NCBI GenBank assembly: GCA_025462725.1
Contig: JAOAPE010000012.1
Coordinates: forward strand, 607,942-671,941
Direction of reading: 5' to 3'
Source: Terriglobales bacterium
GTDB taxonomy: Bacteria; Acidobacteriota; Terriglobia; Terriglobales; Acidobacteriaceae
DNA: 64,000 nt
Positions 30,153 to 31,552 of this stretch are shown here, piece by piece (the first letter of the stretch is position 1; each line of letters begins with the position of its first letter). A model generated the notes under the pieces. The model had not been told where the DNA came from. It searched no databases and saw only the letters and a list, made by a program, of their open reading frames with translations. The translations under genes and the position numbers were made by a program.

Positions 30153-30823
30153 TTACGGGTCTCCATTCCCGTGAGGATCACGTCCACGATCGCGTCCGCC
30201 GCATCGCCCAATTTGTAATCACGTTCGCTTAGGAGCCAGGAAGTCACCATTGCATCCAGCGCGCCGAAGAAACAGTTCGCGGCAATCTTGTCGGAAACTT
30301 CTCGACGGAACTGTCCCGCCATCTGACCATCGCGCACGATCGAGCGTACCAGGTCGAAGTACGCTATCAATCTGTGATGGGAAAACTGCGCGAGGAACTT
30401 CGCACTCTGCCGGAATTCCGTCTGGAATACCATCGCCAATCCGCGATTCGCTCCCAGGCTCTCCAAATGCAGCGCCGCCAGTCGACGCAACCTTTGACGC
30501 GGGTCTGCGATTTCCGCTAACTGAGTCTGCGCCGCATCCATGAAGAGCGTGAATGCGAAGTCGATTGCCGCCATCAATATCTGTTCTTTGTTTTTGAAAT
30601 ATAGATAGATTGTTCCGTCGGCGACTTCCGCCTTCTTCGCGATATCGGAGATGCGAGAATTGAAGTACCCATTCTCAGCGAAGACTTCGATGGCGGCTTG
30701 CAGAATGCGATGGTGCTTCTCCGGGCTACGCCCTGACGATGCGTCGAACTTGCCGTTTTGCTCTTCAACCCGCTGCATTTGCACTGCCGCTGGTCTTCGT
30801 CGGGCTTTTGCGCTGGTGCTCAA
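30149..30823 (-). CDS. TetR/AcrR-family regulator, probably of fatty-acid metabolism
   Basis: 224 residues from a TTG start with AAGGACAAA upstream; Met at 30778 is an alternative. The N-terminal helix-turn-helix is typical (ILQAAIEVFAENGYFNSRISDIAKKAEVADGTIYLYFKNKEQIL, residues about 40-85). The C-terminal ligand domain resembles the FadR-like TetR group, with ANCFFGALDAMVTSWLLSERDY near the end. It overlaps the acyl-CoA ligase start by 4 bp, so it probably represses its own operon and responds to acyl-CoA. It is divergent from the peroxiredoxin gene, with 159 bp between. Confidence 0.88.
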   Translation of the reverse strand: MSTSAKARRRPAAVQMQRVEEQNGKFDASSGRSPEKHHRILQAAIEVFAENGYFNSRISDIAKKAEVADGTIYLYFKNKEQILMAAIDFAFTLFMDAAQTQLAEIADPRQRLRRLAALHLESLGANRGLAMVFQTEFRQSAKFLAQFSHHRLIAYFDLVRSIVRDGQMAGQFRREVSDKIAANCFFGALDAMVTSWLLSERDYKLGDAADAIVDVILTGMETRK

Positions 30824-30982
30824 TTTGTCCTTGTAATGAATGGCGATTCAGTCCGCCGCACTAATGTAAATCCAGCTTCGCTCAAGCGCAATCGAAATCC
30901 CCATCGAACGCGTCCGCGAACATCATTGACCATGCTTAGACACTGGCGTAATCTGGCTTTGCGCCACTCCAGAGGTGATTTG

Positions 30983-31552
30983 ATGCGCAGAACAGTTTTT
31001 CCCGTGCTGCTGGCTATGGCATTAACGGGTTCGGCTTTTTCACAAGCCGCGCCAGCCAAGCCCGCCGCCCAGAAACAGGAAGCCCCTCCCGAACCGCGAA
31101 TCAAGGTCGGCGACATGGCCCCTGATTTCACTCTCAGAGATCAGAATCGCAAGGAAGTGAAGCTGAGCGATTTCCGCGGCAAGAACAATGTCGTGGTCGC
31201 ATTCTTCGTCTTTGCATTCACCGGTGGTTGAACCGCTGAAATGAAGGCTTACCAGGAGAAGTTGAAAGACCTGGAAGCCGCCGACACCCAGGTTCTGGGT
31301 GTGAGCATGGACAGCACCTTCTCCAACGACGCATTCGCCAAACAGATCGGCGTGACTTTCCCAATCCTCAGCGATTGGGGTGGCGACGTGACCAAGAACT
31401 ACGGAATCTACAACCCCAACTACAAAGCCGCTCGCCGAGTCACTTACCTCATAGATAAGTCAGGAAAAGTTGTCGAGATGCAAATCGATAAAGATGCGGT
31501 CGATCCAAGCGCTATTGTCACTACTTGCAAGCGACAAAAGTTGAAGGAATAG
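30983..31552 (+). CDS. Exported peroxiredoxin (AhpC/TSA) with selenocysteine encoded by in-frame TGA
   Basis: 189 residues if TGA 31229-31231 is read as selenocysteine (position 83). The start is ATG 30983 with AGAGGTGA five bases upstream, followed by a signal peptide (FPVLLAMALTGSAFS). The peroxiredoxin fold follows: KVGDMAPDFTLRDQNRKEVKLSDF, then VVAFFVFAFTGG, the TGA and TAEMKAYQEKL. In AhpC/TSA proteins this is exactly the peroxidatic position (F-T-x-x-C-T-x-E). After the TGA the same frame continues with family features (QVLGVSMDS, GVTFPILSDWGGDVTKNYGIYN, RRVTYLIDKSGKV) to TAG. A Cys near residue 182 could be the resolving thiol. A pseudogene or base error is the alternative, but the intact frame and the hairpin just downstream favour selenocysteine. 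The selenocysteine-insertion genes are not in the window. Confidence 0.85.
31246..31279 (+). promoter_or_regulatory. Candidate bacterial SECIS hairpin
   Basis: GGCTT pairs with AAGCC (31246-31250 with 31275-31279), and CCAGG pairs with CCTGG (31252-31256 with 31270-31274). One A is bulged, giving ten base pairs around a 13-nt apical loop that begins AG. The stem starts 14 nt after the TGA, and the loop G at 31258 is 27 nt from it. Bacterial SECIS elements lie in the coding region just after UGA, with a G among the first two loop bases about 16-37 nt away. The element fits that rule. Confidence 0.65.

Follow-up and report, generated by a model that had tools for sequence, protein, structure and literature searches.

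We analyzed a 64,000-nucleotide stretch of a Terriglobales genome (here called the window) and found a peroxiredoxin gene in which an in-frame TGA occupies the position of the catalytic cysteine. Judged from its sequence, the gene product is quite probably an exported peroxiredoxin in which the TGA is decoded as selenocysteine (Sec). The features of the gene, in window coordinates, are as follows.

30983 to 31552, plus strand: gene for a Sec-containing, putatively exported peroxiredoxin of 189 amino acids, with Sec83 and the stop codon TAG (sequence, Pfam, alignment, and model)
30983 to 31042, plus strand: putative signal peptide MRRTVFPVLLAMALTGSAFS, cleavage site placed by eye (sequence, family rule, and low model pLDDT)
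31229 to 31231, plus strand: TGA read as Sec, at the peroxidatic site close to where helix 81-92 begins (translation, alignment, orthologs, and model)
31246 to 31279, plus strand: predicted SECIS hairpin of type A, with a 10-bp stem that has a single bulged base in its 5' strand and a 13-nt loop (fold and clade tests)
31526 to 31528, plus strand: codon of Cys182, the sole Cys of the protein and putative resolving Cys, at Sec +99 in the C-terminal helix 176-188 (sequence, alignment, and model)

The reading frame runs from the ATG at 30983 through the TGA to the TAG at 31550-31552 without any other stop. Translated with TGA as U, it gives 189 amino acids with Sec as residue 83, in the context F-A-F-T-G-G-U-T-A-E-M. 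Both the sequence and this translation confirm the frame proposed in the initial annotation, which had also placed the TGA at the catalytic-Cys position of AhpC/TSA enzymes with peroxiredoxin sequence on both sides. The latter claim is borne out by Pfam and by the coding signal flanking the TGA. The 189-amino-acid protein matched AhpC-TSA (PF00578) with an E value of 1e-36 (126 bits against a gathering score of 26) and Redoxin with an E value of 3.8e-25. We scanned codon usage around the in-frame TGA codons of the window that have open sequence on both sides, scoring each by its weaker side. The TGA at 31229-31231 had the top score (15.7; runner-up, 9.0), and the scan of the 64,000 nt yielded no other recoded TGA codon scoring near 15.7. 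TGA serves as the terminator of 7 of the 38 nonoverlapping open reading frames (ORFs) of at least 250 amino acids in the window, so the genetic code has not been reassigned as a whole. That ordinary annotation would split the gene is evident from the mechanical ORF list, which holds it as two separate ORFs (30758-31231 and 31241-31552). The same list contains a 103-amino-acid ORF on the minus strand (30820-31131) that overlaps the start of the gene, a mechanical call without support.

The genome (4.33 Mb in 91 contigs, listed as 100% complete) contains the full set of genes for Sec insertion sought after the initial annotation: SelA (536 bits against a cutoff of 268), SelB (400 against 242), SelD (364 against 125), and tRNA-Sec (65.6 against 47). 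The Rfam tRNA-Sec model alone is unspecific, exceeding its cutoff in 5 of 14 control genomes; ARAGORN confirmed the tRNA-Sec gene, with the anticodon TCA. A second locus in the genome, barely above the cutoff of the model, is a tRNA-Ser. Close to its start, SelD (L025, 1501-2436) has a single in-frame TGA (context, KAAGUASKL) and is likely a selenoprotein itself. The active site also contains an in-frame TGA in three more thioredoxin-fold genes of the same genome (L003, L005, and L008); the motifs across this set are WTPVU (signal-like start not seen), DTPGU (PrxQ-like), and GTWUPNC.

The TGA is conserved in orthologs. The best 34 matches, from 61 genomes (the window's own included) and down to an E value of 8.3e-29, each have one TGA and zero other stops. 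All 30 of those that we inspected carry the TGA in [FL]AFTxGU, followed by a Cys 98 to 106 residues on. An alignment of 27 orthologs has 26 invariant columns, including T80, G82, the active residue 83, R152, and C182. Together with the complete machinery, this conservation supports the earlier proposal that the organism decodes UGA as Sec. When named genomes were scanned with 26 ortholog queries, 45 of the best 80 of 501 loci were Acidobacteriota by title (e.g., Candidatus Sulfotelmatobacter, Terriglobia, Blastocatellia, and Pyrinomonadaceae), and the remainder were mostly other peroxiredoxin types. At the level of the phylum, we surveyed 297 Acidobacteriota genomes that were at least 85% complete, scoring up to 11 candidates per genome. 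The 48 best matches (E values up to 9.5e-42), found in 47 genomes, have one TGA each; the cut was set at the gap before the following match (L173), a Cys protein of another type. SelB was present in all 47 ortholog-bearing genomes, compared with 192 of the 297 overall (hypergeometric probability, 1.2e-10, uncorrected for kinship). Viral contigs gave two weak matches only (28% identity), and the three plasmid records matched were ordinary peroxiredoxin or redoxin matches; mobility is therefore not indicated at that sensitivity.

We pooled the family into 99 nonidentical members, defined by a Cys at +97 to +108. Identical 420-nt stretches were dropped (e.g., L001, L034, L111, L119, and L131), as were L121 (a cut contig without the C terminus), L129, and further nonfamily peroxiredoxins. 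In the residue 83 column, the alignment check proposed at the outset, 95 members have TGA and 4 have Cys (TGT or TGC), which is the conserved in-frame TGA with Cys interchange that characterizes selenoproteins. The four Cys forms (L130, L134, L135, and L136) all keep the same C-terminal Cys. Their existence would suit the view that the TGA is a true stop, left in an ordinary Cys peroxiredoxin by a nonsense mutation or a sequencing error. We consider this view extremely improbable. A sequencing error is excluded because so many nonidentical members share TGA at that very column. Neither the best 34 matches nor the 48 of the phylum survey have any stop beyond the one TGA, coding signal is present on both sides of it, and the genome has the whole Sec machinery.

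In a maximum-likelihood tree of 115 rows (98 from the family and 17 others), 97 of the family rows formed one group with modest support (82/86). The four Cys forms took four separate positions among the Sec members, some of the joins being weakly supported. L169 (Anaeromyxobacter), counted as one of the 99 and carrying its Cys at +99, fell outside the family on a long branch (1.62). L050, cut at its 5' end, was excluded from the tree, and both L050 and L169 were excluded from the clade tests described below. Seven of 16 borderline loci (L172, L179, L180, L181, L183, L184, and L185) combine a TGA with a Cys 97 to 100 residues on, and the remaining nine are of other types.

The initial annotation had also predicted that the enzyme is exported. 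The N-terminal sequences of most family members support this claim by a simple charge-and-hydrophobicity rule, under which a signal-like N terminus is present in 67 of 74 members, the window's gene included. Among the seven failures, five have a hydrophobic stretch with no net charge before it, L071 has a wrong start (a script assigned the start codons, with errors in places), and L143 is seemingly without the stretch. Under the same rule, 6 of 36 other loci passed: 4 duplicated or truncated family members and 2 loci from a different exported peroxiredoxin type. A second copy, L181, lacks such a hydrophobic stretch from its chosen start. Residues 1 to 20 of the window's protein were modeled with a pLDDT of 54 to 57, as is expected of a signal peptide. 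Separately, we noticed a second peroxiredoxin type with Sec in F[PA]KAFTG[GP]UTAEC and a Cys four residues on, some members of which have signal-like starts. It is found in Planctomycetota (L162 and L166, the latter with UTKEC) and Acidobacteriota (L186 and L187) and has a Cys form (L151).

An AlphaFold2 model built with 43 family rows reached a mean pLDDT of 90.8; a single-sequence prediction (pLDDT, 38.7) was set aside. The model has a peroxiredoxin fold, with residue 83 near the start of helix 81-92. Its nearest folds (Foldseek and VIA-align) were AhpE, BcpB, Bcp1, Bcp4, and PrxQ, with Z scores of 23.4 to 25.1 and rmsd values of 1.4 to 1.9 over 148 to 152 residues and 34 to 35% identity to AhpE. 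Typical 2-Cys peroxiredoxins ranked next (Z, 22 to 23). From the PxxxTxxC/U motif, the protein has Thr80 and Sec83, that is, TxxU, with Val76 standing for the Pro. Across the 99 members, this position holds Val in 65, Ile in 18, Pro in 12, and other residues in 4; the Cys forms have Pro (L130, L134, and L135) or Val (L136). The accessible text of a 2026 review (PMC13188914) describes the proline of PxxxTxxU as highly conserved in Sec peroxiredoxins. Peroxidase efficiency is therefore uncertain with Val in its place.

The replacement of this proline in 87 of the 99 members might mean that the protein is not a peroxidase and serves as an envelope thiol-disulfide oxidoreductase, chaperone, or peroxide sensor selenoprotein. 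ResA- and TlpA-type models do match it, far below their cutoffs (64.5 against 170 bits and 24.5 against 230 bits, respectively). We find this explanation unlikely, since the protein contains neither CxxC nor UxxC, the position at Sec -3 is Thr (95 members) or Ser (4 members) throughout the family, and Arg152 is invariant in the 27 aligned rows. Furthermore, the nearest solved structures, AhpE, BcpB, and Bcp1, are peroxiredoxins.

The C-terminal Cys is the probable resolving residue. It is the domain's only other Cys in 98 of the 99 members, a set selected for having that Cys; the count in the pooled family is accordingly not independent, unlike that in the 30 inspected orthologs, all of which retain it although they were picked regardless of it. 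We infer a catalytic route along these lines. SelB and Sec-tRNA(UCA) would decode the UGA at 31229-31231 as Sec, directed by the hairpin, and the N-terminal signal peptide would then take the chain out to the envelope. There, the Sec83 selenolate would reduce peroxide, the selenenic acid would be trapped by Cys182 of the C-terminal helix as a selenenylsulfide, and this would be reduced by some periplasmic thiol donor. For the step that joins Sec83 to Cys182, taken by itself, we lean moderately toward its occurring. Alternatively, the enzyme may be a 1-Cys-type Sec peroxiredoxin in which a small thiol or partner protein reduces Sec83 directly, with the C-terminal Cys playing a structural part or forming a dimer contact, an option that differs from the preferred one in the Sec-Cys bond only. 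In its favor, the title of the closest structure, AhpE, calls it a 1-Cys peroxiredoxin. We regard this option as possible and clearly the less favored of the two, given the retention of the Cys both in the independently picked orthologs and in the four Cys forms, and its status as the only other Cys of the domain in nearly all members of a set selected for having it. As for the donor that the Sec-Cys route would require, we saw no recurrent gene for a redox partner or reductant in 44 loci plus the window (unequal flanks; ORFs of at least 100 amino acids). The upstream genes that recurred, named by eye, are acyl-CoA ligase-like (9 of 45), thiazole synthase-like (7 of 45), and TetR regulator-like (4 of 45), a pattern that we take to reflect synteny among closely related genomes.

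Next to the TGA, the RNA is predicted to form a hairpin whose stem starts 14 nt and whose loop starts 25 nt after the UGA; the loop begins with A-G. For the segment 31229-31290, the predicted folding energy is -14.8 kcal/mol (z = -2.2; at least equaled by 6 of 200 shuffles). Two segments that clip the 3' arm of the hairpin gave z values of -2.0 (31210-31275) and -0.94 (31226-31275). We then compared 48-nt segments of the 95 Sec members with a synonymous-codon null, in which the protein is kept and the codons are sampled from the gene itself. Mean z was -1.29 and -1.25 at 0 and 9 nt after the TGA, respectively, and -0.34 to +0.06 in seven other segments; structure above the null is found only directly downstream of the TGA. 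In the four Cys forms, the same test gave z values of -0.64, -0.49, -1.29, and +1.81. A predicted loop of 3 to 14 nt beginning 14 to 40 nt after the UGA is present in 91 of the 95 members, and in 80 of them one of the first two loop bases is a G. Such loops were equally common at three control offsets (88, 94, and 94), but an early G was seen in only 27, 46, and 51.

Pooling all Sec members gave a consensus fold with no structure, and the sequences were therefore split by their own folds and then by tree clade. The split by folds is circular and is used as description only; the tests were done on the tree-clade split, with 36 rows in the window's clade (support, 100/100) and 57 members in the other clades. 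Two hairpin forms emerged, both chosen on the sequences used to test them. Type A pairs a 5' arm at 18 to 25 nt with a 3' arm at 39 to 46 nt after the UGA, and in the window's clade it is 92.7% complete compared with 79.4% under the synonymous null (standard deviation [sd], 1.8; maximum of 200 draws, 84.7). The window's own hairpin has the type A upper stem, with a bulged base and the lower stem shifted. Type B is a compact hairpin with a 3-nt loop 23 nt after the UGA and is 83.2% complete in the 57 other members compared with 56.5% under the null (sd, 1.5; maximum, 60.8). The two forms use the same 5' arm with different 3' arms. Neither type rises above the null in the opposite clade. By individual folds, the 36 rows of the window's clade comprise 30 type A, 1 type B, and 5 other, and the 57 remaining members comprise 48 type B, 2 type A, and 7 other. 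Covariation in type B amounts to 43 cells with two-sided changes in seven of nine pairs, compared with 2 to 18 cells when the partners are slid by 1 to 3 bases. In type A it is weak (6 cells in two of eight pairs, compared with 0 to 9 when slid), so the support for this type comes from the codon test and from the completeness of its pairing. The four Cys forms fit neither pairing well (type A, 0.25 to 0.38; type B, 0.11 to 0.56). The protein residues beneath the hairpin arms also differ between the forms (YQADIAKF and FQQNLxKLE).

The accessible part of PMC13188914 gives a bSECIS model with a 3- to 9-nt loop, located 16 to 37 nt after the UGA, and a G within the first two loop nucleotides. The window's hairpin agrees with this model in loop position (25 nt), in the early G (A-G), and in energy (-14.8 kcal/mol, for a minimum free energy limit of -7.5), whereas its 13-nt loop is larger than the 3 to 9 nt of the model. 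Outside the window's clade, the loop is mostly 3 nt.

The window's protein is of a known kind, the bacterial Sec peroxiredoxin with TxxU (NCBIfam NF040737, PrxU), with which it shares the AhpC/TSA family and a peroxidatic Sec. It scores 81.6 bits against the curated cutoff of 270 of that model and differs in its probable export, the missing motif proline, the single C-terminal Cys at +99, and the SECIS loop of its clade. Among its closest folds (AhpE, BcpB, Bcp1/Bcp4, and PrxQ), AhpE (Rv2238c) has Cys and the motif proline (FFPLAFTGIC), whereas the window's protein has Sec, Val, and the C-terminal Cys. That Cys, the hairpin after the TGA, and the absent proline are points beyond those raised in the initial annotation. 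The available text of PMC1794560 counts three selenoprotein families (four selenoproteins) for Acidobacteria and lists three Sec peroxiredoxins for Anaeromyxobacter. Within the portions consulted of PMC1794560, PMC9312934, PMC13188914, PMC1088965, and PMC12013277, a scope outside which most subscription literature lies, we found no description of an exported Acidobacteriota peroxiredoxin group or of its C-terminal Cys.

Read jointly, the data may describe one selenoprotein family with two SECIS architectures that share the 5' arm and have different 3' arms. Type B would be the form in most members, replaced by type A at the base of the window's clade with the arm residues changing alongside, and the family would consist of exported Sec-Cys peroxiredoxins, with Sec in nearly all members, that have mostly given up the motif proline. 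We judge the case for this combined reading to be evenly balanced. If the enzyme is exported, selenium is spent on peroxide defense outside the cytoplasm, and a UGA-recoded chain must cross the membrane. The family occurs in 47 of the 297 sampled Acidobacteriota genomes, and its gene is split by mechanical ORF calling. The absent proline offers a test of how far the PxxxTxxC/U motif is needed, and the pair of hairpin types, together with the four Cys variants, allows natural comparisons of the hairpin needs of SelB and of the advantage of Sec over Cys.
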